NCBI GenBank assembly: GCA_903926565.1
Contig: CAIYJU010000174.1
Location: 1 to 52,674, forward strand
Origin: an uncultured Bacteroidales bacterium
Lineage (GTDB): Bacteria > Bacteroidota > Bacteroidia > Bacteroidales > FEN-979
DNA length: 52,674 nt
Reading direction: 5' to 3'
A program made the translations under genes and the position numbers. How positions within the stretch are numbered: the stretch's first letter is position 1; each line of letters begins with the position of its first letter. Below, in pieces: positions 5,999 through 52,674 of this stretch. The notes under the pieces were generated by a model. That model was not told the origin of the DNA and searched no databases. It saw only the letters and a list, made by a program, of their open reading frames with translations.

Positions 5999-6012
5999 GG
6001 GGGTAAATAAAA

Positions 6013-6041: not shown

Positions 6042-6061
6042 CTGAAATCATAGAACAACAT

Positions 6062-12235: not shown

Positions 12236-12243
12236 GAAAAATC

Positions 12244-14467: not shown

Positions 14468-14471
14468 GAAG

Positions 14472-14505: not shown

Positions 14506-14695
14506 GTATTCAAAATAAATATTATCGCATAAATTTGTAAACTGAGAATGTTTGTAATTCGACAGAGATTTTTACCTTCCTCCCCAAATGTTAATAAACC
14601 TTAAATCTCACCCCGCTTTAACCGCTTCAATCCAATTTTTTAATAGTTTTGTTCCTTTTTAGAATCAGAATAAATAGTTTCTAATTGCTAATGAT

Positions 14696-16204
14696 ATGAT
14701 TAAGAAAGTATTGGTGGCAAACCGGGGCGAGATTGCCGTCAGGGTGATGCGTTCATGCCGCGAAATCGGGATCAAAACCGTGGCCGTATTTTCCGAGGCC
14801 GACCGCACCGCCATGCATGTACGCTATGCCGACGAAGCCTATTGCATCGGGCCGGCCCCGTCACGCGAAAGCTACCTCAACATCGACGCAATTATCGGGG
14901 TTGTTAAAAAGTCAGGCGCCGATGCCATCCATCCCGGGTATGGCTTCCTTTCTGAAAATGCCGGATTCTCCGAGCGCTGCAAAGCCGAAGGGATCAAGTT
15001 TATCGGTCCTGATGCCTACGCCATCCGCACCATGGGCGACAAGATCACCGCCCGCCAGACCATGATCGCCTCCGGCGTGCCGGTCGTGCCTGGAACCAAA
15101 GAGAAACTCTCCGACGAAAAAAAGGCGGTGGAGGTAGTGAATGAGATCGGCTTGCCTATTATGATCAAAGCCTCTGCCGGCGGAGGTGGCAAAGGGATGC
15201 GCCTCGTGAAGAAGATGGAGGAGCTCATCCCGTCGCTCCGCATGGCAAAATCGGAGGCCATGAATGCTTTTGGCGACGATGCCGTTTATATTGAAAAGTA
15301 TATTGAATCACCCCATCATATTGAATTCCAGATCCTCGCCGACCAGCATGGCAATGTCGTTCACCTCTTCGAACGCGAATGTTCCATCCAGCGCCGTCAC
15401 CAGAAAGTTATTGAGGAAACTCCTTCACCGCTGATGACCCCGGAACTGCGCGCCGAGATGGGCGAAAAGGCCGTTGCAGCTGCCAAAGCGGTGAATTATG
15501 AAGGTGCCGGAACGATCGAATTCATCGTGAATGACAAGCGGGAGTACTATTTCCTCGAGATGAACACCCGTCTCCAGGTGGAACATCCGGTGACAGAACG
15601 TGTTGTGGGGGTTGACCTGGTCAAGGAACAGATCAACATCGCCAACGGACTACCTCTCTCCTTTAAACAGGAAGATCTTGAGCAGCATGGCCATGCCATC
15701 CAGTGCCGGATCTATGCCGAAGACCCCGACAACAACTTCATGCCCAACCCGGGCGTTATCAAGCACATCACGGTGCCCCTCGGACTTGGGGTGCGCTACG
15801 ACGGGTATGTGTATGAGGGCTACGAGATCCCGATGCATTACGATCCGATGATCTGCAAGCTCATCACCTGGGGCAAGACCCGCAAGGAGTCGATTGCACG
15901 TATGCGCAGGGCATTGTACGAATACAAGATCACCGGGGTGAAGACCTCCATCAAGTTCCTCGAACGCATCATGGATGCACCGGAATTTGTGGAGGGAAAT
16001 TACAACACCCACTTCATCGAGGATAACCACGAACGGTTGTTCACCTCCAAACCCTGCGGTACCGAATGTGAGGATATGGCCATCATCACTGCATTCATCG
16101 ACTACCTTGACAAGCTGGCTGAGATCCAGCCCCCGAAATATACCGAAGAGCTGGGAAGCAACTGGAAAGATTTTGGCCGCAAACGGAATGTTTTACGTTT
16201 ATAA
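14696..16204 (+). CDS. Biotin carboxylase subunit of acyl-CoA (propionyl-CoA type) carboxylase
   Basis: A 502-residue ATP-grasp enzyme that carboxylates the biotin on the carrier protein encoded next. The start MIKKVLVANRGEIAVRVMRSC is the standard biotin carboxylase N-terminus. The glycine-rich ATP-binding loop is KASAGGGGKGMRLV, the catalytic region includes ERECSIQRRHQKVIEETPSP, and the biotin-binding region includes FLEMNTRLQVEHPVTE. It leads a three-gene set of biotin carboxylase, biotin carrier and carboxyltransferase. The separate carrier distinguishes it from the fused alpha subunits of many bacteria. It has a long AT-rich leader; TAnnTTTG-like boxes at 14530 and 14644 are weak promoter candidates. 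Confidence 0.93.
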   Translation: MIKKVLVANRGEIAVRVMRSCREIGIKTVAVFSEADRTAMHVRYADEAYCIGPAPSRESYLNIDAIIGVVKKSGADAIHPGYGFLSENAGFSERCKAEGIKFIGPDAYAIRTMGDKITARQTMIASGVPVVPGTKEKLSDEKKAVEVVNEIGLPIMIKASAGGGGKGMRLVKKMEELIPSLRMAKSEAMNAFGDDAVYIEKYIESPHHIEFQILADQHGNVVHLFERECSIQRRHQKVIEETPSPLMTPELRAEMGEKAVAAAKAVNYEGAGTIEFIVNDKREYYFLEMNTRLQVEHPVTERVVGVDLVKEQINIANGLPLSFKQEDLEQHGHAIQCRIYAEDPDNNFMPNPGVIKHITVPLGLGVRYDGYVYEGYEIPMHYDPMICKLITWGKTRKESIARMRRALYEYKITGVKTSIKFLERIMDAPEFVEGNYNTHFIEDNHERLFTSKPCGTECEDMAIITAFIDYLDKLAEIQPPKYTEELGSNWKDFGRKRNVLRL

Positions 16205-16213
16205 TACAACCCA

Positions 16214-16744
16214 ATGGCATACGAAATAAGTATCGGACATCGCACGGCGAAAATCGAGCTGCTCAACCGCGTAGGACACAAAGCCCTCATCAAGGTTGAC
16301 GACCTTAAATATGACCTCGACATCGTGGAGGTTGAAAACGGCGTCTATTCCATCATATACAACGGCAACTCCTACAATGTGGAGCTCATCCGCGGGGAGT
16401 CGAGCAAGAAGTTTGTCGTGAACACCTTCTCGAAAACATTCAATGCCGAGGTGATCGATGCGGAATCGAAATACATCGCCAACCGCAACCAGGGCATGGA
16501 GGTGGAGGGATCGAACCAGATTGTATCACCCATGCCGGGGAAAATTGTTAAGATCCCGGTGAAGGCAGGCGACAGGGTTACAACCGGTGATACACTCATC
16601 GTGGTGGAAGCCATGAAGATGCAGAGCGAATTCAAGGCCACGGGCGATAAAATCGTCCAGGCCATACTGGTAAAAGAGGGCGACACGGTAGATTCTCACC
16701 AGGTGATGATCAAGCTTGAAAGCATCGTCACCGAAGAAGCCTGA
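16214..16744 (+). CDS. Biotin carboxyl carrier protein of acyl-CoA carboxylase
   Basis: A 176-residue biotin acceptor. The C-terminal biotinyl domain carries VVEAMKMQSEF with the modified Lys between two Met residues (about residue 136), preceded by SPMPGKIVKIPVKAGDRVTTGD. The N-terminal about 100 residues form a beta-rich region likely to contact the other subunits, as in the acyl-CoA carboxylase and oxaloacetate-decarboxylase-type carriers of Bacteroidota. It lies 9 bp after the biotin carboxylase gene and 84 bp before the carboxyltransferase gene. Confidence 0.92.
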   Translation: MAYEISIGHRTAKIELLNRVGHKALIKVDDLKYDLDIVEVENGVYSIIYNGNSYNVELIRGESSKKFVVNTFSKTFNAEVIDAESKYIANRNQGMEVEGSNQIVSPMPGKIVKIPVKAGDRVTTGDTLIVVEAMKMQSEFKATGDKIVQAILVKEGDTVDSHQVMIKLESIVTEEA

Positions 16745-16828
16745 TAAGGCCCCCTTTCAGGTAATCAGCCTGACAGCCCTATATTTGACATTTGATTTTA
16801 AAATCTGACTTTTGAAATAATTCATATT

Positions 16829-18367
16829 ATGCAAACCATAGAAGAGCGTTTTAAGTTTTTCGAAGACAAGAACCACAAGGCTGAACTTGGCGGCGGTGTA
16901 GACAAGATCGCAAAAATCCACAAAAACGGCCGGCTTACGGCACGCGAGCGGATCCTGACCCTGTTGGATGTCAACTCATTTGTTGAGATGGACAAACTGG
17001 TCATGCACCGTTGTCACGACTTCGGCATGGGGCACAACAAGGTGCCCGGAGATGGCATGGTAACCGGTTACGGAAAGATCGACGGACGGCTTACCTTCGT
17101 ATTCGCCCAGGATTTTACCGTCTTTGGCGGTACGATGAGCCGGGCCAATGCCGACAAGGTTGTGAAGATCATGGACATGGCCATGCGCATGGGTGCACCC
17201 CTCATCGGGCTTAACGATTCGGGCGGCGCCCGCATCCAGGAGGGTGTTGAAAGCCTTGCCGGTTATGCCGATATCTTTTACCGCAATGTGATGGCTTCGG
17301 GCGTGATCCCGCAGATTTCGGCCATCATGGGGCCCTGTGCCGGTGGTGCTGTTTATTCCCCGGCCATGACCGATTTCATCTTCATGGTGAAAGAGTCGAG
17401 TTACATGTTCGTGACCGGTCCTGAGGTGATCAAAACGGTGACCCACGAAGAGGTGACGATGGAGGAACTTGGCGGCGCGATGTCGCACAATTCAAAAAGC
17501 GGTGTTGCCCATTTCGCCGGCGAGAACGATGAGCAGGTGGTGCTGATGATCCGCGAGCTGATGAGTTTTCTGCCATCCAACAACATGGAAGATCCTCCCT
17601 GCCAGCCCTGCACCGATGATGTGATGCGCCAGGATGAGAAGCTGCAGACAGTGGTTCCGGCCGATCCGAACAAGCCTTACGACATGAAAGAGATCATCAC
17701 CACGGTGGTCGACAACAACAACTTCTTCGAGGTGATGCCCCATTATGCACAGAACATACTCATCGGCTTCGCCCGCCTGGGTGGAAAACCGGTGGGCATC
17801 GTAGCGAACCAGCCTGCCTTCCTGGCCGGGGTGCTCGATATCAATTCTTCCGTTAAAGCTGCCAGGTTTGTGAGGTTCTGCGATTGTTTCAACATCCCCA
17901 TCATCACCCTGGTGGATGTCCCTGGATTCCTGCCGGGAACCACCCAGGAGTTTGGCGGCATCATCAAGCACGGGGCCAAGTTGCTTTACGCATTTTCTGA
18001 AGCCACCGTTCCAAAGATCACCCTCATCACCCGGAAAGCTTACGGCGGCGCCTACGACGTGATGTCAAGCAAACACATCGGGGCAGATGTGAACTATGCA
18101 TTCCCAACCGCGGAGATTGCCGTGATGGGCCCCGAAGGTGCTGTGAACATCATTCATAAAGGGAAACTCAACGAAGCCGACCGTACCGAAGCCGTTGACC
18201 ATTATCGTCACACGTTTGCGAACCCGTATAAAGCTGCTGAACTTGGGTATGTAGATGAGATCATCCTGCCCCGGCAGACCCGTACAAAACTGATCCAGGC
18301 GCTGGAGCTCACGCAGAACAAAAGCAAAACCAATCCGCCGAAGAAACACGGGAATATTCCATTATAG
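16829..18367 (+). CDS. pccB: Propionyl-CoA/acyl-CoA carboxylase carboxyltransferase (beta) subunit
   Basis: A 512-residue carboxyltransferase that would convert propionyl-CoA to (S)-methylmalonyl-CoA with the two upstream subunits. Two crotonase-like halves are evident: the first with [20 protein letters not shown] and [18 protein letters not shown], the second with [24 protein letters not shown] and [17 protein letters not shown]. This pattern matches PccB/MmdA. A membrane-bound sodium-pumping methylmalonyl-CoA decarboxylase is the main alternative for the beta-type sequence, but the adjacent biotin carboxylase supports the ATP-dependent carboxylase. In this genome it could handle propionyl-CoA from odd-chain, branched-chain or thymine degradation. 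Confidence 0.9.
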
Positions 18368-18368
18368 C

Positions 18369-18716
18369 TTATTCCGGCGAACCATTCTCAATCCAGCACG
18401 ACAGCAACCTGATCTGTGCATCCGGCAGGCGGTCGGCATCCTTCGGCATTTTCTCATAGAACGGTTTATGCTGCACCGCACCCATGAAACTCTTGTTCTT
18501 GCTTTCCTTTGAAGCGCTCGCAAAAGTGGTTAAATCGAACGCATCTCCGTTGGCGCCATGGCATCCTGCACGGTCGTTACATGTGGCATCCAGTATGGGT
18601 TTGATATTTTGTGTATAGGTTGGGGTAATGCCGGTACAATCGTATTGAACGACATGTTTGCAGCTGAGTGCACTCACCAGCAGAATCATTGCAAAAAGAC
18701 AGCCAGGAACTTTCAT
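18369..18716 (-). CDS. Small lipoprotein with cytochrome-c-like C-x5-CH motif
   Basis: A 115-residue predicted lipoprotein. The signal peptide ends in a lipobox-like LVSALSC (about 13-19). The mature part begins with TYTQNIKPILDATCNDRAGCHGANGDAF in which two Cys are followed by His, as in the Bacteroidota proteins annotated as cytochrome c domain proteins (pattern IKPIxxxxC...CH). The spacing is C-x5-C-H rather than C-x2-C-H, so covalent heme attachment is doubtful. A C-terminal LLSCWIENGSPE matches the end of those domains. It converges on pccB with one base between stop codons. The function is unknown. Confidence 0.7.
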   Translation of the reverse strand: MKVPGCLFAMILLVSALSCKHVVQYDCTGITPTYTQNIKPILDATCNDRAGCHGANGDAFDLTTFASASKESKNKSFMGAVQHKPFYEKMPKDADRLPDAQIRLLSCWIENGSPE

Positions 18717-18797
18717 GAAAATCAGATTAATGTGGCACTGTTTACAGAGGTGCTAAGTTAGATATAAAATCCGGATAATGGATTGGTTGAAACTTCG

Positions 18798-18805
18798 TAA
18801 CTTTG
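18798..18805 (+). promoter_or_regulatory. Candidate -7 box (TAACTTTG) for the C1A peptidase gene
   Basis: TAACTTTG matches the Bacteroidota -7 consensus TAnnTTTG. No good -33 element is found at 19-21 bp. It lies about 70 bp before the preferred start codon. Confidence 0.35.
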
Positions 18806-18875
18806 CTCATGCCATGAAATAATTCTTTTCTTTGGCTAATCAATGATTATCGTTTATCCGACAACTTTGTTGCAC

Positions 18876-21800
18876 ATGAAAATATTCAGATTTTTCCCTG
18901 TTTTATACATACTGGCCTTCTTTTTCCCTGTTTTTCTTTTCGGGCAGGAACCACAATCGCGGAGGGTTGCACCTGCTTATTCTTCATCAGCCAGGTTGCA
19001 TGATTCAATTGCTGCATGCAGGATTCCGCTCCTCACCCTGCCTGAAAAATACCGAAACATGTCATTGCCGGCAGTGGTCGATAATTCACTGAATGATTAC
19101 TGGCCCGGCATGAAGGATCAGTTTAATTTTATGGCTTGTCAGCAATACTGTGGCGTGGCGTATGTATTTGGCTATGAGATAAACCGGGCACGGAACCAAC
19201 CCGGCTGGTACTGGGAAAACAGCTATCCGACACACTATACCCTGAATTTCATGAACAAGGGCGAATGGGAGGCTGGGGTTGACTTCCTGCAGAGTTTTGA
19301 GATCATCAGGCAGCAGGGGCAGATGACCTCTGCGGATTATGGTGTGGATACATCCACCTCCTACAGGGGATGGATCAGCGGGTATGACAAATATTACCGG
19401 GGGATGTTCAACCATTTGAAACATGTTCACGCCATTGAAGTCAACAGCGCTGCCGGCATCAATACCCTGAAGAACTACCTGAACGACCATCTCGATGGCT
19501 CAGCCACCGGGGGAATCGCATGTTACACAACCAGCGCCGGGGCAATTTACAGTTTGAAACTACTTCCTCAGGGAACTCCCGAGGCAGGAAAAAGTGTGGT
19601 GCTGGTTTGGCAGCCAAACCCTGATCATGGCCTGACAGTTATTGGTTTTAACGATTCTGTCAGGTACGATGTAAATGGTGACGGGAGATACACCAACGAC
19701 CTGGATATCACCGGCGACGGCATTGTTGATGCCCGCGATTGGGAATTCGGCGCCTTTAAGATAGCCAATTCCTATGGCGCAAGTTACTGGGGAGATGACG
19801 GTTATGCGTATGCCTTGTATCGTTCGTATGCCTTGAATTATGAGCAGGGCGGTGTGTGGAATAACAGGGTTTATGTAGTGGATGCCGATACCGCCTATCA
19901 GCCGCTGCTTACCCTTAAAGTAAGGATGAATCACACAACACGTAACAAAATAAGGATTCTTGCCGGGGTTTCCACCGACACACTGCGACAGATGCCTGAT
20001 CATGTAATTGACTTTCCGATTTTTAATTTCCAGGGGGGTGATCATGTGATGCAGGGTTATGACACGGTTCCGGGGGCTGCAACGATTGAATTCGGGCTGG
20101 ATGCCACCGCCCTCCTCAATTTCATCCCCGCCGGGCAGCCTGCGCGATTATTCCTGATGGTCGAAGAACGGGATCCTGAACATTCTGCCAGTGGAAATAT
20201 CGAACAAGCCTCTTTCATCAGTTACCAGGGCAATCCCGTGGAATTTCCGTTAAACGATGCATCGCTGCCGCTCAGGGACAATAATACGACCCTGGTTTCG
20301 GTTGTGGCGGCCATTGACAAACCCACCGTACAGATCACAACGGCCAGCCTTCCTCCCAATATTGCGGGGCAGCCCATCCAGGTTCAACTGGAAGCAACGG
20401 GAGGACAGTCTCCCTATGAATGGACCTTTGTTGAAGAGTATGTTAAAAAACCATCGGAAACACCGGAACCACTCATTTCAGGAACTTCCATCCTGGTTTA
20501 TCACCCGGCAAGATCATATGCCGCTGTGGCGCTGCCATTCAGTTTTCCCTTTTACGGCAAGAGGTTTGATTCTATCTATGTGAACTATTTTGGATTCATC
20601 TCTTTTGAACCGCAGAACCTTCCCGCCCCTTATACAACAGAGGAGATCAGTATGCTCAGGATGTTCCCGCTGATCGTGCCCTCTTTTTCACAGCAATATG
20701 CCTACCAGGCAATCAAGAATGACGGAATCTGGTTCCAGGCGGATGCCACGCATGCAGTGATCCGCTGGAAAGTGTCGGTTTCTCCTTATGTGACCAGTTC
20801 AGTTGACGACTTTGCCGTGATCCTTTATCCCGATGGCCGTTTTGAGTTTTGCTATGGAACGATGGACAACCAGGGTTTTGTTCATACGTTTTACCAGGGT
20901 GTTTCGAAAGGGGATGATCTGAATCATGACATTGGAACACAGTGGGATGCCAATGAAATTTCGGGGAAGAGTTTTTTGTTTTATCCGCCCGTTATTCCTG
21001 AGAAGATAACCCTGAGCCAGGCTGGTCTTTTGTCAGTGACCGAAGCCGATTCCGCTGTTATTTACGGGCTTCATGTTCGTGCAGCAGATGCCGGCAAGAT
21101 CTCCGACGACAAGGTATTGATGCTATCCGGGAGCCTGGGGATTCAGCAGGAACTGATCTGTGACGGAGAAGCACAACTGAAGTCGGGCCATGATGCAAGA
21201 TTAAAACTGATCCTGACCAACAACGGGTCCCAGGCATTAAACGATGTAGCTTTGAAACTCCGTTCAGTCGATGGTATGGTCCTGATTACAGATAGTTTAC
21301 ATGCTGTTCCGGTCATCAATCCCGGTCAGTCACTGACCATTCCCGCAGTGTTTTCCTTCCGGCTCCGCCATCTTTTGCCGAATGGTTTCCCTGTTATGAT
21401 GACCCTTGCTGCGCAATCGGGTGAAAGAAACTGGAAGAAGGATTTGATGTTTCCGGTTGTTGCCCCCGAAATCGTTGTTGAGTCCCCTGTTGTTGCCGAT
21501 GGCTTCAACGAACGTCTGGATCCTGGTGAAATAGCTGAACTGCGGGTGAATGTGAATAACCTGGGTGCGCTCAGCGTTCAAAATCTGAAGCTGAAACTCG
21601 TTTCCAATAACCCGATCGTAACCATTCTTTCAGATCCGGCGATCACCATTTCCCAGCTACCAGTTTATTCTTCGAACAAATTCCGTTTTCAGCTCAAGGC
21701 CTCCCGGAATGCCCTGGCGGGAAGTGATGCAGGAATGACAATTCTCCTGAGCGACTCAGCCGGAATCTTACAATCCCATGACTTTAACCTCCGGATCGGA

Positions 21801-43700: not shown

Positions 43701-44570
43701 TTAGAATTCGACAGTCTTTTTGTACGTTTCAGGTCTCCGGTCACGGAAAAACTGCCAGACAGAACGCACTTCATCAATCAGATCCAGGTCGAATTCAGCT
43801 ACCAGCAGTTCATCGTTGTCTTCCGAAGCCTGTGAAAATATCTGCCCGCGTGGATCCACGAAATACGAAGAACCATAAAATTTCCCGATATTCCATGGCT
43901 TTTCAATGCCAACCCTGTTGATGCATCCCATGAAATATCCGTTTGCTGCCGCATGGGCTGGTTGCTCCAGTTTCCAAAGGTATTGAGAGAGTCCGGCAAC
44001 GGTTGCAGAAGGATTGTAAACAATTTCAGCACCATTCAACCCCAGTTCCCTTGCTCCTTCGGGGAAATGACGGTCGTAGCAGATATAGACCCCGACTTTG
44101 GCAAACCTGGTCTGAAAAACAGGGTACCCCAGGTTTCCCGGTTTGAAAAAATACTTTTCATAAAAACCCGGAGCTACGTGAGGGATGTGGTTTTTGCGGT
44201 ACTTGCCCAATATGGTGCCATCAGCATCAATCACAACAGCCGTATTGTACAACACGCCCGGCATCTCCTGCTCGTACATCGGTACAATGATCACCATGTT
44301 GTGTTTTTTTGCCAGCTCCTGCATCAGTGCAGTTGTTTTTCCTGGGATTGATTCAGCAGATTTGTACCATTCATTGTTCTGCCCGGGACAAAAATAGGGA
44401 CCGTAAAAAATCTCCTGCAAACACAGGATCTGGACTCCCTGCTTTCCCGCATTTTCGATAAAAGGAATGTGTTTCTGAATCATTGCTTCCTTGATTTCAG
44501 CAATGGTGCCTTCGCCTTCCGATTTCGGAACAGACATCTGGATCAGTCCTGATTTTATTTTTCGTGACAT
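43701..44570 (-). CDS. Beta-ureidopropionase (N-carbamoyl-beta-alanine amidohydrolase), nitrilase superfamily
   Basis: A 289-residue carbon-nitrogen hydrolase that would release beta-alanine, CO2 and ammonia from N-carbamoyl-beta-alanine, the third step of the reductive pathway. The Glu-Lys-Cys triad is present: LCLQEIFYGPYFCPGQ (Glu), GKYRKNHIPHVAPGFYEKYFF (Lys) and VGVYICYDRHFPEGARELG (Cys). The EIFYGPYFC and RHFPEGAREL stretches match beta-ureidopropionases better than N-carbamoylputrescine amidases, and the neighbours preT, preA and dihydropyrimidinase agree. The gene is bracketed on both sides by similar large inverted repeats. Confidence 0.9.
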   Translation of the reverse strand: MSRKIKSGLIQMSVPKSEGEGTIAEIKEAMIQKHIPFIENAGKQGVQILCLQEIFYGPYFCPGQNNEWYKSAESIPGKTTALMQELAKKHNMVIIVPMYEQEMPGVLYNTAVVIDADGTILGKYRKNHIPHVAPGFYEKYFFKPGNLGYPVFQTRFAKVGVYICYDRHFPEGARELGLNGAEIVYNPSATVAGLSQYLWKLEQPAHAAANGYFMGCINRVGIEKPWNIGKFYGSSYFVDPRGQIFSQASEDNDELLVAEFDLDLIDEVRSVWQFFRDRRPETYKKTVEF

Positions 44571-44632
44571 TGGTTTAGGATTTTATATTAAATTTTCAGT
44601 TTCAGTAACATCCGATTGATTCATTAAAACTC

Positions 44633-44726
44633 ACTCTGTGGTTCTTCTATGTCTTCTCTGTGTAACTCTTTGAAATAAAAAATGTTACACAGAGAACCAC
44701 GGAGGATACACGGAGGACCACAGAGA
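44633..44726. repeat. Large inverted repeat (CTCTGTGG family), site D
   Basis: The left arm CTCTGTGGTTCTTCTATGTC... pairs with the right arm ...ACACGGAGGACCACAGAG, with the inner pair TCTCTGTGTAAC / GTTACACAGAGA. It lies between the dihydropyrimidinase and beta-ureidopropionase genes and closely resembles site C. Confidence 0.75.
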
Positions 44727-44776
44727 AAAAAATGTGTCAAAGTCATGGTATTAGCCAGTTCAAGAGTTGCTGATAT

Positions 44777-46159
44777 TTATAAAATATTCGTCAGTTTTGA
44801 TCTTTTAACAAATTCTCCGTAACCTTTCTGGATCTTCACGCTGCCATGGTCAATGGCAACTTTCCCGCGGAGCAGCACCGTTTCAGCTTTGCCGGTCACT
44901 TCATGGCCTTCGTAGGCTGAATAATCACAATGATGATGATGCGTGGATGCTGAAAGAACATGCTTTGTTCCGGGGTTGAAAATGACAATATCTGCATCAC
45001 TGCCAACCGCGATGGTTCCCTTTTTTGGGAACATCCCGAATATTTTGGCCGATGATGTCGAGGTGATATCCACCATTTTATTCAAACTGATCTTCCCTTT
45101 ATCAACGCCTTCAGAAAAAATCAACTCCATCCTGTGCTCAATACCAGGAGCACCGTTGGGAATCTTGGTGAAATCATGTTCACCTTTACACTTGTCTTCC
45201 CACATAAACGGGCAGTGGTCGGTAGCCAGTGTCTGGACGACACCCTGGTTGATCGCAGCCCACAGGGCTTTCTGGTCTTTTTTCTCCCGGATGGGCGGGC
45301 TCATCACCCATTTGGCGCTTTCAAAACCGCGGTCATAAACGGATGCATCCAGTACGAGGTACTGAATACAGGTCTCCACAAATACTTTCTGATCCCGCTT
45401 TTGTGCATCCCGTACCTTGTTGAGCGCCCCCTCCGAGGTCATGTGCACAATATAGGAATTTGATCCGGTTTGCCAGGCCATGTCGATAAACCTGCCGGTA
45501 GCCTCTGTTTCTGTGATTTCGGGTTGGGATAAATAGTGATATAAAGGAGAAAGGTTTCCCATGGCTTTATTTTCTGCAACCAGGTAGTCAATGATATCGC
45601 CATTCGTCGCATGAACGGTTACGATCCCGCCGTGTTTTTTCACTTCCTTCATCAGGCCAACCATTTGCCGGTCGTCGATCATCAGCGATCCTTTGTATGC
45701 CATGAAGGTTTTGAAGGATGATATGCCTTCTTTCCCGATCAGGTCTTTGATTTCGGTTTGGGTATCGGCATTGAAATCGGTCACTGCCATGTGGAAGGCA
45801 TAGTCGCTGAAAACTTTGCCGGTTGCCCGCCCCTGCCATTCTCTCAGTGCATCATACAACGATTTTCCATGTGACTGGATCACAAAATCAATCACCGTGG
45901 TAGTGCCGCCGTGCATGGCGGCGAGCGTTCCTGTTTCATAATTGTCGCTTGAGAAAGCGCCCATGAAAGGCATTTCGAGGTGAACATGCGGGTCAATCCC
46001 TCCGGGAAGCACAAGCTTGCCGGAGGCATCGATGATGGTATCTGCAGAAACGTTCAGATTCAGGCCAATCGCAGAAACTGTTTCTCCTTCAATAAAAATA
46101 TCAGCAGTATAATCATCGGTGGCAGTAATGATCCTGCCATTTTTTATCAGGGTTGACAT
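44777..46159 (-). CDS. hydA: Dihydropyrimidinase (D-hydantoinase)
   Basis: A 460-residue zinc amidohydrolase that opens dihydrouracil or dihydrothymine to the N-carbamoyl beta-amino acid. Metal ligands and the carbamylated Lys lie in GGIDPHVHLEMPFMG, SSFKTFMAYKGSLMIDDR, VTVHATNGDIIDYL, SYIVHMTSEGAL and ATDHCPFMWEDKCKGEHDF. The length fits the family, and the Cys in ATDHCPF plus the GAPGIEHRMELIFSEG stretch are typical of dihydropyrimidinases rather than allantoinases. It starts 12 bp after the aminotransferase gene. Confidence 0.95.
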   Translation of the reverse strand: MSTLIKNGRIITATDDYTADIFIEGETVSAIGLNLNVSADTIIDASGKLVLPGGIDPHVHLEMPFMGAFSSDNYETGTLAAMHGGTTTVIDFVIQSHGKSLYDALREWQGRATGKVFSDYAFHMAVTDFNADTQTEIKDLIGKEGISSFKTFMAYKGSLMIDDRQMVGLMKEVKKHGGIVTVHATNGDIIDYLVAENKAMGNLSPLYHYLSQPEITETEATGRFIDMAWQTGSNSYIVHMTSEGALNKVRDAQKRDQKVFVETCIQYLVLDASVYDRGFESAKWVMSPPIREKKDQKALWAAINQGVVQTLATDHCPFMWEDKCKGEHDFTKIPNGAPGIEHRMELIFSEGVDKGKISLNKMVDITSTSSAKIFGMFPKKGTIAVGSDADIVIFNPGTKHVLSASTHHHHCDYSAYEGHEVTGKAETVLLRGKVAIDHGSVKIQKGYGEFVKRSKLTNIL

Positions 46160-46171
46160 GGTGATTATTGT

Positions 46172-47509
46172 TTAGTGATAATATTCATCTGCAATGGTTA
46201 TTGCTTTTTCGATAATATCGAGCCCTTCATCAACCTGGTCTTTGGTGATGATAAGCGGGGGCGCTACAAATATCCAGTTCCAACGGACAAATGTAAACAA
46301 ACCCAGTTCACGCAATTTTGCACCAATCCTGTTGGTAGGTTCCATATCCTTTGCCGCAGCATTAAAGGGTGTCAGAGGTTCCCTGGTTTCACGGTTCTTT
46401 ACCAGTTCAATCACGCCAAGCAGGCCTGTGTTGCGGAAATCACCTATTGATGGATGTTTTTCAGCCATCTGTGCCACTTTCCCTTCAAGGTACCTGCCCA
46501 TGGAAGCTGCATTTTCAACCAGCTTCTCATCCTCATAAACTTTAATGCAGGCCAGGGCGGTGGCGCAGCCCAGGGCATGTGCAGAATAAGTCAATCCCAA
46601 AGGCAGCGGAATATCATTGAAATAGGCTGCAATCTCTTCTTTTACAATAACCCCGCCGAGTGGTGCATAACCGGAGGTCAAGCCTTTTGCAACACACATG
46701 ATATCGGGAGTAACATCGTGATGGTCAATGCCGAACCATTTTCCGGTGCGGCCAAATCCGCTCATCACCTCATCGTCGATCAGCAGTATTCCATACCGGT
46801 CGGCGATTTCTTTTACTTTTTTCCAGTAAAAAGGCGGGTATTTGATACACCCGGATGTTCCTGATTCGCCTTCAATAAGTATTGCTGCAATGCTTGCGGG
46901 GTTTTCAAACTGGATGATCCGTTCGAGGTTTGCCGCCGCCCGTTCCCCGCATTCTTCCATGGTGTTGCTTTTCCATGGGCACCGGTAGAAATATGGATTT
47001 TCAACATGAACGATGTTGGGAACACCCTGGTCGTCAAAAAGGAATTTTCTCGGATCACCGCCAACGGAGACGGCACCGTAGGTTGCCCCGTGATAGGAGC
47101 GGTAGTGCGATATGATTTTATGCCTTCCGGTATATAAACGTGCCAGTTTCACCGCATTCTCCACGGCCTCGGATCCACCGAGTGTAAAGAGGGTTTTCTT
47201 TAAACTTCCGGGGGTGATCTCTGCCAGTTTTTTTCCCAGTTCACCCCGCACACTGGTTGCCATGGAACAGGTAACAAAAGTAAGTTGCTCTGCCTGTTTT
47301 TTGAGTGCTTCAATAACTACAGGATGCTGGTGCCCGATATTGGCATTCATCAGCTGCGATGAAAAATCGATATATTTTTTCCCGTCATAGTCGTGGAAAT
47401 AGACCCCCTTAGCCGATTTTACAGTGATCGGATTTAATCCTGCCTGTTTTGACCAGGAAAACATGGTGTAATCCAGGTTGTTTTTTACGATTTGTTCTCT
47501 TTCAGTCAT
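46172..47509 (-). CDS. Class III aminotransferase, probable beta-alanine (beta-aminoisobutyrate) transaminase
   Basis: A 445-residue PLP enzyme. The PLP-binding Lys is in CVAKGLTSGYAPLGGVIV; the cofactor Asp region is LLIDDEVMSGFGRTGKWFG; the substrate region includes YHGATYGAVSVGGDP. Family members act on beta-alanine, taurine, 4-aminobutyrate and similar omega-amines. Its place between dihydropyrimidinase and the semialdehyde dehydrogenase supports conversion of beta-alanine to malonate semialdehyde, or of beta-aminoisobutyrate to methylmalonate semialdehyde; the amino acceptor is unknown. Confidence 0.88.
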   Translation of the reverse strand: MTEREQIVKNNLDYTMFSWSKQAGLNPITVKSAKGVYFHDYDGKKYIDFSSQLMNANIGHQHPVVIEALKKQAEQLTFVTCSMATSVRGELGKKLAEITPGSLKKTLFTLGGSEAVENAVKLARLYTGRHKIISHYRSYHGATYGAVSVGGDPRKFLFDDQGVPNIVHVENPYFYRCPWKSNTMEECGERAAANLERIIQFENPASIAAILIEGESGTSGCIKYPPFYWKKVKEIADRYGILLIDDEVMSGFGRTGKWFGIDHHDVTPDIMCVAKGLTSGYAPLGGVIVKEEIAAYFNDIPLPLGLTYSAHALGCATALACIKVYEDEKLVENAASMGRYLEGKVAQMAEKHPSIGDFRNTGLLGVIELVKNRETREPLTPFNAAAKDMEPTNRIGAKLRELGLFTFVRWNWIFVAPPLIITKDQVDEGLDIIEKAITIADEYYH

Positions 47510-47545
47510 GTCAGTTGTCTTAGATTTTATGGTGCAGATCGTTCC

Positions 47546-49006
47546 TTAACTCATCCAGTCGGTTATCTCCTGTTTAGCCCACTTGGAGGTCACCTTTTTC
47601 AATTGTGACCAGAAGCCCAGGGAACTTTTCCCGGTAATATCACCGGCACCAAATTTTGATGCATTCCAACCGCCAAAGGAGAATGGCTCACGGGGAACCG
47701 GTACGCCAATGTTGATGCCGATCATTCCTGCACTGGCATTTTGTGCAACCATTTTGGCAATGGCACCGTTCTGGGTAAACGCGGATGCGGCATTTCCAAA
47801 GGGACTTTCGTGCTGGACCGAAATGGCTTCTTCCACACTCTTTGCTGAAATGATTTCGAAAACAGGGCCAAAGACCTCCTGGTAAGGCATTTTTGCGTCG
47901 GTGTGTCTCCAGTCTATAATGGTTGGTCCGAGATAGTATCCGTTCGGATCTGCCTGTTCGTCATTGGAAAACTGACGGCCATCAACCAGGAGAACCGCTC
48001 CATTCTTCTCAGCTTCCGTGATGTAAGCGACCAGGTTTTCCCTTGACTGCCGGGAAATGATCGGCGGCATTTTTTTCCCGGGGATGAATTTTAACACCTC
48101 TTCGCACAGTTTTTCAACGATCGGGTTCACATTCCCTACTGCAATCATTACCGAAGCAGCCATGCAACGCTGGCCGGCTGAACCACACATGGAGGCAGCG
48201 ATGTCGGCGGCGGAAAGCTCAAGATTCGCATCCGGTAATACAATCAGATGATTTTTTGCGCCACCCAAAGCCAGGCAGCGTTTCAGGTTTGAGGTCGCAC
48301 GGCGATAAACAATCTGTGCCACCGGGGTGGAACCCACAAACGAAACTGCTTTTATTTCAGGATGGTCGCAAATGGCTTCAACTACATCTTTTGCACCATT
48401 GACAACATTAAAAACGCCATCAGGCAAACCGGCCTGTTTCAGCATTTCTGCCATTTTTGTGGTGGTAACCGGAGTTAATTCCGAGGGTTTCACCACGATA
48501 CAATTTCCGAGGGCCAGGGCGTTTGGCACGGTCCAGTGAGGGACCATGTGCGGAAAATTGAAAGGGTTGATGCAGGCAACAACTCCGAGAGGAGCATACT
48601 CCGTGCGGCATTCCACACCAATGCTCACTTCAAGTACCTCGCCCACAGCAATTTGCGGAATAGAACAGGCAAATTCTGTGAGTTCGATACTTTTGCGGAC
48701 TTCGGCAATTGCTTCATCCATGGTTTTGCCATTTTCATCATGGATGATTGCCGCAAGCATCTCAACATTTTCTTCAAGAAGCTGTCGGTAATTATACAGA
48801 ATCTGTGACCGCATCTTCGAAGTCATCCCTGACCACGCAGGGAAAGCATTTTTCGCAGCATTCACCGCAAGATCAACATCATGGTACGATGATAGCGGAA
48901 CTGTAGAAATTACACTGCCTGTTAGCGGGCTGTCGACATCCATGCGTTTGTTGTCGCAGGAAACGAACTCGCCGTTGATGAAATTACGAACATCCTGGTA
49001 TTTCAT
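47546..49006 (-). CDS. mmsA: CoA-acylating (methyl)malonate-semialdehyde dehydrogenase
   Basis: A 486-residue aldehyde dehydrogenase of the MmsA type, which oxidises and decarboxylates malonate or methylmalonate semialdehyde to acetyl-CoA or propionyl-CoA. The catalytic Cys is in CGSAGQRCMAASVMIAVGN, and NPFNFPHMVPHWTVPNALALGN is characteristic of MmsA. GVPVPREPFSFGGWNASKFGAGDITGKSSL near the C-terminus also fits. It is the first gene of the probable pyrimidine-degradation transcript and supplies its last step. The gene starts at the ATG at 49006, facing the benzoyl-CoA-reductase-like genes across a 304-bp divergent region. Confidence 0.93.
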   Translation of the reverse strand: MKYQDVRNFINGEFVSCDNKRMDVDSPLTGSVISTVPLSSYHDVDLAVNAAKNAFPAWSGMTSKMRSQILYNYRQLLEENVEMLAAIIHDENGKTMDEAIAEVRKSIELTEFACSIPQIAVGEVLEVSIGVECRTEYAPLGVVACINPFNFPHMVPHWTVPNALALGNCIVVKPSELTPVTTTKMAEMLKQAGLPDGVFNVVNGAKDVVEAICDHPEIKAVSFVGSTPVAQIVYRRATSNLKRCLALGGAKNHLIVLPDANLELSAADIAASMCGSAGQRCMAASVMIAVGNVNPIVEKLCEEVLKFIPGKKMPPIISRQSRENLVAYITEAEKNGAVLLVDGRQFSNDEQADPNGYYLGPTIIDWRHTDAKMPYQEVFGPVFEIISAKSVEEAISVQHESPFGNAASAFTQNGAIAKMVAQNASAGMIGINIGVPVPREPFSFGGWNASKFGAGDITGKSSLGFWSQLKKVTSKWAKQEITDWMS

Positions 49007-49310
49007 GTGTAGTTGGTAGATTATAATAGTTGATAATATCGGGAACCTCAGGATCCTCTCTCAAACTACATTTTCGTTATTGAAACAGGGTCTTGTACAA
49101 GAGAACAATATTAAGAATAATTTGGAAATCTCATGGAGAGATGTTGATAATTCAATATTTGTAAATAAGTTGGCGGAAATTTGCGTGGATAAGAAATTTT
49201 TTTAACTTTGGAGTCTCTCACAGACTACTTCCCCGCTGACGATTTCCCCCTCCCGCTTGGCATCACTTTCATTTATTTTTTTTTGATTTTAATCTTTAAT
49301 CATTACGGGT
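49007..49310. promoter_or_regulatory. Divergent regulatory region between mmsA and the bcrC-like gene
   Basis: This gene-free AT-rich interval must drive both catabolic modules. On the plus strand it has a full-consensus promoter at 49180-49210. For the mmsA direction no -33/-7 pair of equal quality was found. No regulator gene lies between the modules, and no clear operator palindrome was recognised. Confidence 0.5.
49180..49210 (+). promoter_or_regulatory. Promoter of the benzoyl-CoA-reductase-like cluster
   Basis: TTTG (49180-49183) is followed after exactly 19 bp by TAACTTTG (49203-49210), a full match to the Bacteroidota -33/-7 consensus. A start near 49217 gives a leader of about 95 nt before the TTG start codon at 49311. 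Confidence 0.65.
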
Positions 49311-50474
49311 TTGAGCACACTTCAGGAAATTGTTGCGCATTGTGAAGAACTGGCTTTTGATCTTTCCTTTAAAAGGGCCGGCGCATGGAAAGCACAGGGG
49401 AAAGACAGGGTTGTCATCGGGCATTTGCCCGTTTATTTTCCCCGGGAGGTGATCCATGCTGCAAATGGCCTGGCTGTCGGTATTTTGGGGGGAGGTGATA
49501 AAAAACTGATCATCAAGGGCGATGCCTATTATCAGTCTTATATCTGCCACATGCCAAGGAGCGTCATTGAACTTGCCCTGGATAAGCACTTTGACGATTT
49601 TGACGGGTTTATCTTTCCGTCAATATGTGATGTGATCAGAAATCTTTCGGGGATGTTCCAGATGCTTGGAGAAGGGAAATTTGTGAAATATCTTGACTTT
49701 CCGCAGAATTTCAAACATCACATCGGCGGTACCTTTTACCGCTATGAACTGCAAACAGTTCTTGATGAAATACATAAACTCAACGGTGTTGAGGTGACCG
49801 CCGAACGGCTAAACCATTCAATTGGTATGTTCAATCTGAACCGCGCACTGATCTGTCAGCTGTATGATATCCGCAACGAATTCCCATGGCGGATGACTGC
49901 GGCGGATGTGTATCATGTAGTTCGCGCAGGGTATGTGATTCCGGTTGAGGAACATAATGAAATTCTCAGCCAGGTTATTCACCTGATTCAGAAAGAGGCG
50001 GGAAATCCAACGGATAAAATTCGTGTGCTGGTGATGGGAGCATTCTGCGAGCAACCCCCGGTGGGCCTGATCAGAACCATTGAACTGGCTGGATGCTATG
50101 TTGTTGAAGACGATTTTTTATTGGGCGCCAGGTGGATCCAGGGTGATATTGAAACCGGAAGTGCCGATCCGATGGAGGCCATCACCACGGCCTACCTTGA
50201 AAAAAGCACCTTCTCCTCCTCGGTCTATGATGTTGGCAATCCTAAAGAAGCACGCCTGATCGACCTCATCCGGCGCCGGAAAGTTGACGGGGTCATCTTT
50301 GCCGCGCCCAGCTTTTGTGATCCGGCACTGCTCGATCATCCCATCCTCCAGAAGGAGTGCAATGATAAAAATATACGGTTTATCAGTTTTCTTTACAGCG
50401 AAAACACTGGCCAGTTCAAGGTTATTAAAGAACAGGTCGGAACATTCTCAGATTCAATAAAACTCTGGGATTAA
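49311..50474 (+). CDS. 2-hydroxyacyl-CoA dehydratase / class I benzoyl-CoA reductase subunit, BcrC-like
   Basis: A 387-residue HGD-D family protein, close to the length of BcrC (about 385). Members of this family bind an active-site [4Fe-4S] cluster and receive electrons from a BadF/BcrA-type ATPase. Candidate cluster ligands are the Cys in SYICHMPRS (about residue 78), FPSICDVIRN (about 106) and APSFCDPALLD (about 336), the three positions expected for the family; FVKYLDFPQN is also typical. The start is TTG: the frame has a stop seven codons upstream and no ATG before conserved sequence. It heads a plus-strand operon with a full-consensus promoter. Reduction of an aromatic or other unsaturated acyl-CoA, or dehydration of a 2-hydroxyacyl-CoA, are both possible. 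Confidence 0.8.
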   Translation: MSTLQEIVAHCEELAFDLSFKRAGAWKAQGKDRVVIGHLPVYFPREVIHAANGLAVGILGGGDKKLIIKGDAYYQSYICHMPRSVIELALDKHFDDFDGFIFPSICDVIRNLSGMFQMLGEGKFVKYLDFPQNFKHHIGGTFYRYELQTVLDEIHKLNGVEVTAERLNHSIGMFNLNRALICQLYDIRNEFPWRMTAADVYHVVRAGYVIPVEEHNEILSQVIHLIQKEAGNPTDKIRVLVMGAFCEQPPVGLIRTIELAGCYVVEDDFLLGARWIQGDIETGSADPMEAITTAYLEKSTFSSSVYDVGNPKEARLIDLIRRRKVDGVIFAAPSFCDPALLDHPILQKECNDKNIRFISFLYSENTGQFKVIKEQVGTFSDSIKLWD

Positions 50475-50520
50475 CGGTTTCCCATTGTCGGTAATTAAAC
50501 TTAGCAGTAATTAAAGGTAT

Positions 50521-51804
50521 ATGTCAAAAGACGTTAGCAAGGAACGAAGCATGATCATCCAGAAAGAGATGATCTCCGGGCTTTTCAAAGAGCTGAGCAT
50601 GGCGAAAGAGACCGGAAAAAAAGTTGTATATACCTTCGTCCCTGGAAATATCTCCGAGCTCATCCTCTCTTTCGGAATGTTGCCGGTATATCCCGAGATC
50701 AATGCGCTGCAGGCGGGAATGCGGAAAAAATCAGCAGATTACATTCGTGATGCTGAACAACACGGACATTCCGAAGATGTTTGCACCTATGTAAAATGTG
50801 ACGTGGGGATGATGCTTAACGGAAACATCGGACCCACCGGGGAGAAAATCCCTGCACCTGACTTGCTTCTGCTGAGCTATACCGGGTGTTTCACCTTCCT
50901 GAAATGGTTCGAGACCCTCGAACGGCTCTATCCCGGGGTGCCTGTCGCACTGCTTCATACGCCATACCAGGAGGCCCATAAGATCACGCCGGAAATGACC
51001 ACCTACATGGTCAAACAGTTGAAGGAAGAGGTGATTCCAAAGATGGAGATGGTGTCGGGGAATAAATATGATGAAGAAAAACTGAAGTCAATCCTGCGGA
51101 ACTCCTCCAAAGTGGAGGATTACATCATCAAAATATTTGAGACCACCAAAAACCGGCCTTCACCCATCGATGCCTATTTTGCCGGGGTATATTACATTGG
51201 ACCTATCAACAGCGGGTTCCGGGGCACCCCGGAAGCAGTGAACTATTATGCTGAGCTCTACAGTGAAATTCTCCTGAGGGTTGAAAAGAAGCTTGGTCCG
51301 ATAACTCCGGAAGGAGAGATGGAGGAGGAGCGGTTCCGGCTGGTGGTCGAAGGGCCTCCCAACTGGACCCATTTCCGTGAATTCTGGAAACTTTTTTATG
51401 ACATGGGGGCTGTCATTGTGGCTTCATCCTACACCAAAGTAGGTGGCGTGTACGACATGGGATTCCGGGTCAATCCCGACAAACCCCTTGAAAGTCTGGC
51501 AGATTATTGCATGAACTGCTATACCAACCTAAACCTTCAGCAACGAACCGACTTGCTGTCGAAATGTATTACCGATTACCATGCCGACGGATTTCTTGTG
51601 AATTCCATTAAAAGCTGCAACTCATTCTCTGCCGGGCAGCTGATGATCATGCAGCAGCTGGAGCGCACACTTGAAATACCCATTGGGTTCATCGAATCCG
51701 ACCTTGTTGACCCAAGGTATTTTTCCTATTCAAACATCAAAAACCGGCTTGAATCATTCTTTCAGATGCTGGAGCAGCGGAAGATGATTTTCACGCAGGA
51801 ATGA
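50521..51804 (+). CDS. 2-hydroxyacyl-CoA dehydratase / class I benzoyl-CoA reductase subunit, BcrB-like
   Basis: A 427-residue second HGD-D subunit, near the length of BcrB (about 430), which would pair with the preceding protein to form the substrate- and cluster-binding core. Visible are the N-terminal KKVVYTFVPGNISELILSFGMLPVYPE, Cys residues in EDVCTYVKCDVGMMLNG (about 83-91) and SYTGCFTFLKWFE (about 122), and SIKSCNSFSAGQLMIMQQLE (about 363), again giving cluster-ligand positions; IGFIESDLVDPRYFS near the end is typical of the family. It follows the BcrC-like gene by 46 bp and precedes the ATPase gene by 68 bp. Assignment to benzoyl-CoA reductase rather than dehydratase rests on sizes and on the order C-B-A. 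Confidence 0.8.
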   Translation: MSKDVSKERSMIIQKEMISGLFKELSMAKETGKKVVYTFVPGNISELILSFGMLPVYPEINALQAGMRKKSADYIRDAEQHGHSEDVCTYVKCDVGMMLNGNIGPTGEKIPAPDLLLLSYTGCFTFLKWFETLERLYPGVPVALLHTPYQEAHKITPEMTTYMVKQLKEEVIPKMEMVSGNKYDEEKLKSILRNSSKVEDYIIKIFETTKNRPSPIDAYFAGVYYIGPINSGFRGTPEAVNYYAELYSEILLRVEKKLGPITPEGEMEEERFRLVVEGPPNWTHFREFWKLFYDMGAVIVASSYTKVGGVYDMGFRVNPDKPLESLADYCMNCYTNLNLQQRTDLLSKCITDYHADGFLVNSIKSCNSFSAGQLMIMQQLERTLEIPIGFIESDLVDPRYFSYSNIKNRLESFFQMLEQRKMIFTQE

Positions 51805-51872
51805 ACGCAGGCCGAGATTTAAAAAGGCTCCTGTGAACGGAGCAGGAATTGTATAATTTAACAGGTGCATCA

Positions 51873-52674
51873 ATGAAGAAATATTTTCTTGGGATAGATC
51901 TTGGCTCGACAACTTCAAAGGCAATCATCATTGATGACCACGACCGGATCATCGGACGCGGCATTACCAACACCCGTGCAAATTATACGGTTGCAACCGA
52001 AATTGCGCGGCTGGAGGCTATTTACAATGCACGTTTCTCTCTTCTGAAAATGAAACTGGAGGACGAAATTGAACAAAAACCTGAGTACAGGAGATACCTG
52101 AAGGATATCGAATCGGTGTTCAGGTACCTGCAGTTCAAACGAAGGCTCGACCGTCTGAATGTCCAGTTCAGGGACACCATCGAAGTAACCTTCACCGGTG
52201 AAAAGAGAGATCACATCACCGGTTATGTCGACAAAATTGTAAAGGAAGTCGGGCCAGCCATTTTTGATGAATACCTTAATGGAAATTTGGGAGAAAAGAA
52301 CCAGTTTTTCCGGGATATTGTCAGTGAAAAATACAACAAGGAGGTTGGCGATCTCTCAAAAGAATACTTCGAGCCCATGATGCTTGTGTATGACAAGAGC
52401 ATCGCCCATGTGGAAAATGAGCTGACGGAATATGATTTCAGGGAGCTGGTTTACCAGTCGATGGAGCTGTTGAATGACAAATATTCCAACATGGAGGAGA
52501 TGTCTCCGGAAGAAACCGGTGTTGGATTCGACAGCGAACTGAACCTGCTGAAGGGCAATTACAAACAGATTTACGACTCCCTGAAAGGGCATATCAGTTT
52601 TGTGGCCAACCTCGACATCCATATCACCAATATGGTAGGAACCGGATATGGCCGGGCATTGCTTCCCTTTCCCG
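51873..52674 (+). CDS. BadF/BadG/BcrA/BcrD-family ATPase (BcrA-like), 3'-truncated by window edge
   Basis: The first 267 residues of an ASKHA-fold ATPase that would use ATP hydrolysis to drive low-potential electron transfer to the BcrB/BcrC-like core. The phosphate-binding start is MKKYFLGIDLGSTTSKAIIID, followed by a strand and RGITNTRANYTVATEIA. The next familiar motif, VGTGYGRALLPFP, appears only near residue 255, whereas in activators such as HgdC it comes at about residue 60-70. The roughly 190 residues between are charged and helical (LEAIYNARFSLLKMKLEDEIEQ...EYRRYLKDIESVFRYLQFKRRLDRL). From memory, BcrA/BadF (about 438 residues) are about 155 residues longer than BcrD/BadG, so such an insertion may be a BcrA trait. 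The gene continues beyond the window; a BcrD partner would be expected next. Confidence 0.82.
   Translation, partial: MKKYFLGIDLGSTTSKAIIIDDHDRIIGRGITNTRANYTVATEIARLEAIYNARFSLLKMKLEDEIEQKPEYRRYLKDIESVFRYLQFKRRLDRLNVQFRDTIEVTFTGEKRDHITGYVDKIVKEVGPAIFDEYLNGNLGEKNQFFRDIVSEKYNKEVGDLSKEYFEPMMLVYDKSIAHVENELTEYDFRELVYQSMELLNDKYSNMEEMSPEETGVGFDSELNLLKGNYKQIYDSLKGHISFVANLDIHITNMVGTGYGRALLPFP

Follow-up and report, generated by a model that had tools for sequence, protein, structure and literature searches.

The reduction of benzoyl-CoA (CoA, coenzyme A) is the bottleneck of oxygen-free aromatic carbon turnover, and Bacteroidota are common in habitats of this kind. It is not new in this phylum: the available part of PMC8470020 describes a four-subunit benzoyl-CoA reductase, labelled "Bzd-type", in the Vicingaceae metagenome-assembled genome (MAG) KA17, and that of PMC8099898 reports that anaerobic benzoyl-CoA degradation is expressed in MAG 18, a member of the Flavobacteriales. 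The accessible text of PMC10936416 places bcrABCD in Krumholzibacteriota, and the portions at hand of PMC10116835 and PMC1924859 contain nothing on the operon discussed here. Our subject is the end of a 52,674-nucleotide stretch from an uncultured Bacteroidales bacterium (assembly GCA_903926565.1, contig CAIYJU010000174.1; this whole stretch is called "the window" below), which very probably carries the first genes of an operon for anaerobic benzoyl-CoA degradation, whose BcrCBAD enzyme would reduce benzoyl-CoA. The interest of this locus lies mainly in a module of three further genes (hgd2, kpr and act2) and in the exchange of the reductase itself between relatives.

In the labels used here G stands for a genome, L for a locus and C for a contig, G000 being the window's own genome (4.69 Mb, 210 contigs, completeness 93.84%). 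The window is the entire contig C174 of G000, so that the last of the three plus-strand open reading frames (ORFs) with which it closes is cut by the contig end:

49311..50474, plus strand: bcrC, putative benzoyl-CoA reductase subunit C, 387 amino acids (aa), TTG start; assigned by TIGR02263, the tree and its cysteines
50521..51804, plus strand: bcrB, putative catalytic subunit B, 427 aa; assigned by TIGR02260 and active-site residues
51849..52674, plus strand: bcrA, N-terminal part of a putative ATP-driven activase subunit, cut by the contig end; assigned by TIGR02259 and PF01869

A preliminary description of the window had recognised two HGD-D family subunits of 387 and 427 residues followed by a BadF/BcrA-type ATPase, and both the ORFs and Pfam agree: HGD-D matches BcrC and BcrB over nearly their full length (216.8 and 211.8 bits, cut-off 28.4), and BcrAD_BadFG (PF01869) matches the BcrA fragment (36.5 bits, cut-off 31.5). 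The same Pfam families would be expected if bcrCBA encoded an ordinary ATP-driven 2-hydroxyacyl-CoA dehydratase of amino-acid fermentation, and the HadC and HadB models are indeed the second-ranked NCBIfam models for BcrC and BcrB, at about 163 bits. We nevertheless think that such a dehydratase is very improbable, because BcrC passes the NCBIfam equivalog TIGR02263 (449.6 bits, cut-off 421.15) and BcrB passes TIGR02260 (628.2 bits, cut-off 486.55), and because the tree, the active-site residues, the ring-opening genes downstream and the exchange with the class II reductase BamB all speak for a benzoyl-CoA reductase. The models of the BZD type are not passed by the window proteins (84.1 against 453.8 bits and 71 against 448.6), nor is that of the double-cubane cluster protein (DCCP; BcrC 116 and BcrB 70.6 bits, cut-off 350). 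The part of BcrA present in the window scores 120.8 bits against TIGR02259, over model positions 3-246.

In a tree of 75 HGD-D proteins, several of whose reference branches are long enough to have drawn a warning from the program, the window BcrB groups with MbdO (98/92) and the window BcrC with MbdN (100/99) of the 3-methylbenzoyl-CoA reductase (MBR) of Thauera chlorobenzoica, apart from HadB/HadC and from the BZD proteins. The comparison with 2-hydroxyacyl-CoA dehydratases that the preliminary description had called for thus comes out, with this long-branch caution, on the side of the reductase. The residues agree. BcrB Cys88, Cys123, Cys366 and Glu59 align with Cys95, Cys128, Cys380 and Glu65 of BzdO, the cluster ligands and the glutamate named in the available part of PMC11971306. 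At four active-site positions BcrB agrees with MbdO and not with HadB: HadB Trp34, Ser37, Asn56 and the valine at the BzdO His131 site are Tyr, Ile/Val, Ile and Phe in BcrB. Cys79, Cys106, Cys246, Cys262 and Cys336 of BcrC are invariant in 78 of 78 aligned sequences; the protein retains three of the six double-cubane cysteines of BzdN, and two others (Cys246 and Cys262) are common to MbdN. Three additional cysteines of BcrB are conserved, Cys93 and Cys330 in 83 of 83 aligned sequences and Cys333 in 82 of 83, and are absent from MbdO, BzdO and HadB. Frames of 834-879 aa in G008, G019 and G025 had raised the idea of a bcrC-bcrB fusion, which we rejected: the two genes occur together in 84 loci and are separate ORFs in every one of them, and the stop codon after bcrC can be read in L116 (G019) and L121 (G025), G008 not having been read apart.

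What follows bcrA can be seen on other contigs of G000. Contig C32 starts inside a bcrA and continues with bcrD, acd (an ADP-forming acyl-CoA ligase, 693 aa), kpr (ketopantoate-reductase-like, 319 aa), had, oah, dch, hgd2 (a third HGD-D protein, 415 aa), two long proteins with secretion-sorting domains, act2 (an activase, 265 aa), a thiolase and a 3-hydroxyacyl-CoA dehydrogenase. Its Had (450.1 bits, cut-off 338.65) and Oah (578.9, cut-off 464.45) both pass their models. C11 opens with the remainder of the same 3-hydroxyacyl-CoA dehydrogenase, its overlap with C32 being 367 bases at 97.3% identity, and goes on with a glutaryl-CoA dehydrogenase (90% identical to that of G012), a 4-hydroxybenzoyl-CoA-reductase-like (Hcr-like) molybdenum subunit (829.4 bits, under the cut-off of 994.55), a FAD subunit and a thiolase. 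The operon of G000 is spread over three contigs (the end of C174, both ends of C32 and the end of C11) whose overlaps are not identical, as would result from a mixture of strains or species in the bin. In relatives such as L026, L030 and L116 a single contig carries bcrCBAD and the downstream genes in this order, so that dch, had and oah lie near the reductase without any need for joining. Extension to the right, which had been proposed as a check, has thus brought bcrD, had, oah, dch and glutaryl-CoA dehydrogenase, an aromatic pathway, from relatives and from other contigs of G000, and not the amino-acid fermentation genes without aromatic ones that had been named as the contrary outcome.

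The strongest sequence argument for the role of bcrCBAD is that three types of reductase serve the same neighbouring genes. Four genomes of the window's family (G036, G037, G038 and G041) have a single HGD-D match each, hgd2, and no BcrB over the cut-off. In three of them (L112-L114, from G036-G038) the series acd-kpr-had-oah-dch-hgd2-act2, with proteins 79-90% identical to those of C32, is divergent from a gene for class II BamB, a match to PDB 4z3w (1280.7 bits over residues 1-650 for L114). BamB-like genes occur in four of the 43 family genomes, these three and G016; in G000 itself none is found at E up to 1e-60. G016, which belongs to the window's genus (98% complete, 1% contamination), has both classes on its contig C44 (L030):

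1513-8512, minus strand: class II genes, namely bamB, two iron-sulfur proteins and a 1040-aa HdrA-like protein
8785-21219, plus strand: class I genes, bcrCBAD and the rest of the operon, divergent from bamB

The third type is found in family f34 of the same phylum, where L140 encodes BzdN (502.4 bits), BzdO (668.8) and BzdQ (451.3), all over their cut-offs, followed by acd-hgd2-kpr. L135, L136, L139, L141 and L142 share this layout as far as they were fetched and L143 has a related one, L140 being the f34 locus that was run against the BZD models. The reductases of the BCR (benzoyl-CoA reductase), BamB and BZD types are thus all accompanied by hgd2, kpr and act2, act2 lying beyond the fetched stretch in five of the seven BZD-type loci. 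A Bacteroidetes contig (L093) has BZD-like genes at 3913-8417 (minus strand), so labelled by weak similarity and not by the models, divergent from BCR-type genes at 8709-13749 (plus strand). Such a swap of an ATP-driven iron-sulfur enzyme for a tungsten enzyme within one operon is a natural experiment on the choice of reductase class, and G016 holds both.

Several points weigh against this assignment and should be stated together. Full-length BcrA (from L026) reaches 425.4 bits, under the curated cut-off of 578, which is however an annotation threshold and no biochemical feature, and the next family trails at 177.5 bits. BcrD of G000 (on C32) falls short of its model by 0.75 bit (312.1 against 312.85), while that of L026 is over it (320.0). 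Dch of C32 is under its cut-off (219.6 against 292.5), although Dch is its best match. The tree left out the BcrB/BcrC of Thauera and the sequences of Rhodopseudomonas and of FldB/FldC. Finally, C174 and C32 overlap by 142 bases at 80% identity only, a divergence about equal to that between the loci of related genomes in the same stretch; their join is unproven, and we do not take them as one molecule but let the argument rest on the relatives with a single contig. The unmet BcrA cut-off leads us to call the finding a variant of the BCR-type class I reductase; by its catalytic subunits and its setting the operon nevertheless appears to be a genuine one of this type.

The BcrA score also bears on the idea that the enzyme acts on another aromatic acyl-CoA, such as methyl- or hydroxybenzoyl-CoA, as do the fact that the nearest solved relative is a 3-methylbenzoyl-CoA reductase and the presence of Hcr-like genes nearby. 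We consider this improbable, in view of the benzoyl-CoA pathway models passed by BcrB, BcrC, Had and Oah and of the exchange with BamB. What the preliminary description called "possibly an aromatic acyl-CoA reductase" is now, from the equivalogs, the tree, the residues and the pathway genes, very probably a benzoyl-CoA reductase. This reading is built on what the operons of the relatives contain and in which order, on family scores and conserved residues, and on the replacement of the reductase by BamB or BZD-type enzymes. From it, and by homology with BzdNO and MBR, we infer the substrate, mechanism and activity of BcrCBAD. BcrA and BcrD, ASKHA ATPases sharing a [4Fe-4S] cluster, would accept an electron from reduced ferredoxin and, by hydrolysing ATP, drive it into the BcrCB dimer, where the [4Fe-4S]-water cluster of BcrB (held by Cys88, Cys123 and Cys366), with Glu59, would convert benzoyl-CoA to cyclohexa-1,5-dienoyl-CoA. 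Dch, Had and Oah would then hydrate, oxidise and open the ring, and glutaryl-CoA dehydrogenase would follow.

A scan of named genomes gave 108 stretches encoding a relative, the best 80 of which were surveyed. These loci are mostly from Bacteroidota, the other labels being Chlorobiota/Ignavibacteria, Kapaibacterium, KSB1, Calditrichota, Neomarinimicrobiota, Zixibacteriota, Acidobacteriota and Gammaproteobacteria. All 80 have bcrC and bcrB, 76 bcrA and 71 bcrD (some contigs end earlier). Sixty-five loci leave 2.2 kb or more downstream of bcrD; in 63 of these the first gene found there encodes a CoA ligase, AMP-forming in 40 (some by matches of only 27-34% identity) and ADP-forming in 23. Among the 59 loci that reach at least 5.2 kb past bcrD, kpr is present in 56, hgd2 in 55, act2 in 45, had in 39, oah in 34 and dch in 16, these shortfalls including contig ends, which were not counted separately. 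BcrB exceeds its cut-off in 3 of 395 genomes of a phylum sample that includes G000, in 17 of 391 genomes of the class of G101 and in 10 of the 43 genomes of the window's family. The reductase had been called unusual for Bacteroidota, which holds for the phylum sample, where it is rare, but not for its own family, and it was already in print. Two loci with Bacteroidota-like bcr operons (L044 and L092; BcrB 79% and 72% identical) lie on contigs labelled Gammaproteobacteria and Competibacteraceae, through either misbinning or gene transfer. A further BcrB lineage (L145, L146 and L147, from G578, G672 and G699) scores 448-465 bits, under 486.55, and lies with genes resembling oah and dch, to which L145 and L146 add proteins that look like isopropylmalate synthase and the isopropylmalate dehydratase small subunit; it perhaps belongs to another aromatic or alicyclic route.

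We now turn to the module. Hgd2 scores 226 bits on the HadB model and 150.5 on that of BcrB, and in the tree it forms its own clade beside HadB and BzdO. Its predicted fold (mean predicted local distance difference test score, pLDDT, 88.9) is closest to HadB, with template-modelling (TM) scores of 0.83-0.85 by query and 0.89-0.90 by target. The three cysteines, Ser37 and Glu55 of HadB are kept, invariant in 61 of 61 aligned sequences, and we take Ser37 and Glu55 to have a role in HadB catalysis. By these residues Hgd2 would work like a 2-hydroxyacyl-CoA dehydratase. The characterised 2-hydroxyacyl-CoA dehydratases, however, have two HGD-D subunits, and no second (beta) subunit for Hgd2 was found when HGD-D genes were counted in the listed genomes: nine of the ten family genomes with bcr genes have exactly three and G012 has five, G101 and G336, each a single contig, likewise have three, and each of the four genomes without bcr genes has one. 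Because this second subunit was sought and not found, we do not file Hgd2 as a 2-hydroxyacyl-CoA dehydratase, and describe it as apparently single-subunit. That Hgd2 might be an alternative partner of BcrC was considered and rejected, since four genomes have hgd2 without another HGD-D match.

The other two proteins are often fused: of the 88 loci surveyed, 53 have both kpr and act2, and in 31 of these a single ORF of 601-642 aa spans the two; both domains were confirmed for L087, whose model (pLDDT 84.2) leaves the mutual placing of the domains uncertain (predicted TM score, pTM, 0.52). The nearest folds of the Act2 half are the activase of MBR and the activase HadI, and the top matches of the Kpr half are D-mandelate dehydrogenases (PDB 5x20, 3wfi and 8wl1, 21-25% identity); a D-mandelate dehydrogenase is also among the top sequence matches of Kpr. 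One could think that Kpr simply supplies pantoate to CoA synthesis and owes its place in the operon to CoA demand alone, given that it passes the NCBIfam cut-off of the 2-dehydropantoate 2-reductase subfamily (171.5 against 141.35). This we regard as slightly more improbable still than the change of ring substrate considered above: PanE of E. coli matches it weakly, at 26.8 bits, whereas a D-mandelate dehydrogenase entry reaches 73, 31 of 53 loci have Kpr fused to a dehydratase-type activase, and in six f34 genomes two kpr genes flank an aminotransferase. At E up to 1e-40 none of the six genomes has a HisC-family match besides this aminotransferase, a finding that at first favoured plain histidine synthesis; that role is unlikely because hisD is absent from all six, whereas it was detected in 13 of 14 controls. 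Its PDB ranking gives two histidinol-phosphate aminotransferases and, third, the phenylalanine aminotransferase 4r2n. In L120 and L140 Hcr-like genes separate kpr from act2, and in L060 they directly follow kpr; HcrA-like matches occur in 27 of 88 loci, L120 included (40-79% identity to that of L120), and those near 43% may be other molybdenum hydroxylases.

From Hgd2, kpr-act2, the aminotransferase and the Hcr-like genes we infer a route from arylpyruvate through (R)-aryllactate to aryllactyl-CoA. The ligase, Kpr, Hgd2 and Act2 may make benzoyl-CoA from phenylpyruvate or 4-hydroxyphenylpyruvate, a proposal to which we give somewhat less than an even chance. Kpr would reduce the 2-oxo acid to the (R)-2-hydroxy acid, the ligase would add CoA, and Hgd2, energised by Act2, would remove water through ketyl-radical chemistry, giving cinnamoyl- or coumaroyl-CoA, which beta-oxidation and thiolysis would turn into (4-hydroxy)benzoyl-CoA; an Hcr-like enzyme would let 4-hydroxybenzoyl-CoA be used.

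The certainty here is much lower than for the reductase. Hgd2, at 226 bits, is far under the HadB equivalog cut-off of 750, and its missing beta subunit was noted above. The subfamily score of Kpr also tells against an arylpyruvate route, ordinary ketopantoate reductases are close behind the D-mandelate dehydrogenases in its fold ranking, and the HisC-type aminotransferase is seen in BZD-type loci only. G041 has hgd2 with neither BcrB nor BamB found, on a contig of 3.3 kb, and a solitary hgd2 occurs in G202, where other reductases were not searched. HadB, the nearest solved protein, acts on 2-hydroxyisocaproyl-CoA, and the ligases are of no known aromatic type (those of L048 and L120, both AMP-forming, match neither benzoate-CoA nor phenylacetate-CoA ligase models at E up to 1e-30), so that hgd2-kpr-act2 might act on a non-aromatic 2-oxo or 2-hydroxy acid (2-oxoglutarate or a branched-chain one, for instance) and be merely co-regulated with the aromatic operon. 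We hold this to be unlikely, if by no means negligible, as the module accompanies three unrelated types of benzoyl-CoA reductase, Kpr is nearest to D-mandelate dehydrogenase and Hcr-like genes lie inside the module in L120 and L140. Rather less likely again is that Hgd2 serves the ring pathway as one more reductase, acting on a hydroxylated or partly reduced ring acyl-CoA, with Kpr as the dehydrogenase of a ring intermediate. Its family does include ring reductases, and hgd2 stands beside dch in the Bacteroidales layout, but its active site has the HadB-like Ser, Asn and Trp, and the known alcohol oxidation is already covered by Had.

The arylpyruvate route, extended to all these genomes, would mean that Bacteroidota and neighbouring phyla have an undescribed anaerobic feeder from phenylalanine and tyrosine to benzoyl-CoA, coupled interchangeably to three benzoyl-CoA reductases, and here too our confidence stops a little short of even. 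If true, two proteinogenic amino acids would gain an anaerobic route that has been missing, and the module would include a radical dehydratase needing one HGD-D subunit only. The chemical idea has been published, though for a different organism and with a different aim: the available part of PMC13416013 proposes, for a benzene degrader, a path from phenylpyruvate through phenyllactyl-CoA dehydratase, which it names FldBC, to benzoyl-CoA, this gene set not appearing in that part. Nothing closer to the hgd2-kpr-act2 module was found in the open PMC literature.

The remaining features of the window lie upstream of bcrC:

49180..49210, plus strand: Bacteroidota-type promoter-like site, TTTG-N19-TAACTTTG, found by pattern search
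43701-49006, minus strand: set resembling reductive pyrimidine degradation, divergent from bcrC

The promoter-like site has the full consensus, which we take to be TTTG-N19-TAnnTTTG in Bacteroidota, and lies 100 bases before the bcrC start codon. It is weaker than claimed in the preliminary description, which placed the operon behind a full-consensus promoter: the window contains 3 matches to the pattern where 1.35 are expected, and three or more turn up in 14 of 100 shuffles, so that the site, though well placed, is not significant by itself. The minus-strand set consists of a carbon-nitrogen hydrolase, a dihydropyrimidinase, a class III aminotransferase and a methylmalonate-semialdehyde dehydrogenase. 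We rejected these genes as part of the operon because they are on the other strand and are not kept beside bcrC in relatives, matches in the 80-locus survey being weak and scattered (25-33% identity, in L038 and L079 only). In a congener (L118, G012:C199, 9790-12979, minus strand) another, unrelated HGD-D pair, which has an activase to itself, lies near a CooC/MinD-like ATPase. Plasmid searches for named reference BcrB or Hgd2 returned distant proteins only, of about 22-27% identity.

How does this operon compare with the known systems? With the BCR/MBR type (BcrCBAD of Thauera; MBR of Thauera chlorobenzoica, PDB 9g87 and 9gai) it shares the kinds of subunit and the BcrC and BcrB family scores; BcrB has the three cluster cysteines, the glutamate and the Tyr/Phe of MbdO, and BcrC the five cysteines of MbdN. 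It differs in a BcrA under the cut-off and in Cys93, Cys330 and Cys333 of BcrB, absent from MbdO. The bcr cluster of Thauera, unlike the operon here, presumably has neither the ligase nor hgd2-kpr-act2. The "Bzd-type" label given to KA17 in the available part of PMC8470020 does not, in our opinion, hold: BcrB of L084, from the Vicingaceae isolate KA17, scores 666.6 bits on the BCR model, so that the BCR type fits better, and L084 has no BzdO match at E up to 1e-30. The BZD type itself (BzdNO, PDB 8s02) is alike in the positions of the catalytic cysteines and glutamate; it differs in that the window BcrC is without equivalents of BzdN Cys36, Cys263 and Cys293 and that BzdO His131 is Phe in BcrB. 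Class II BamB (PDB 4z3w), an unrelated tungsten enzyme, replaces bcrCBAD beside the same operon in three related genomes. On the side of the module, HadBC with HadI, the (R)-2-hydroxyisocaproyl-CoA dehydratase system, is the nearest: Hgd2 has the cysteines, Ser37 and Glu55 of HadB, and Act2 resembles HadI. Unlike that system, Hgd2 has no HadC-like partner, a CoA ligase is nearby and no CoA-transferase was noticed, and Act2, in contrast to HadI, is often fused to a domain resembling a 2-hydroxyacid dehydrogenase. Kpr, finally, has a fold like that of D-mandelate dehydrogenase, of the ketopantoate reductase family, from which it is set apart by its fusion to the activase in many loci.

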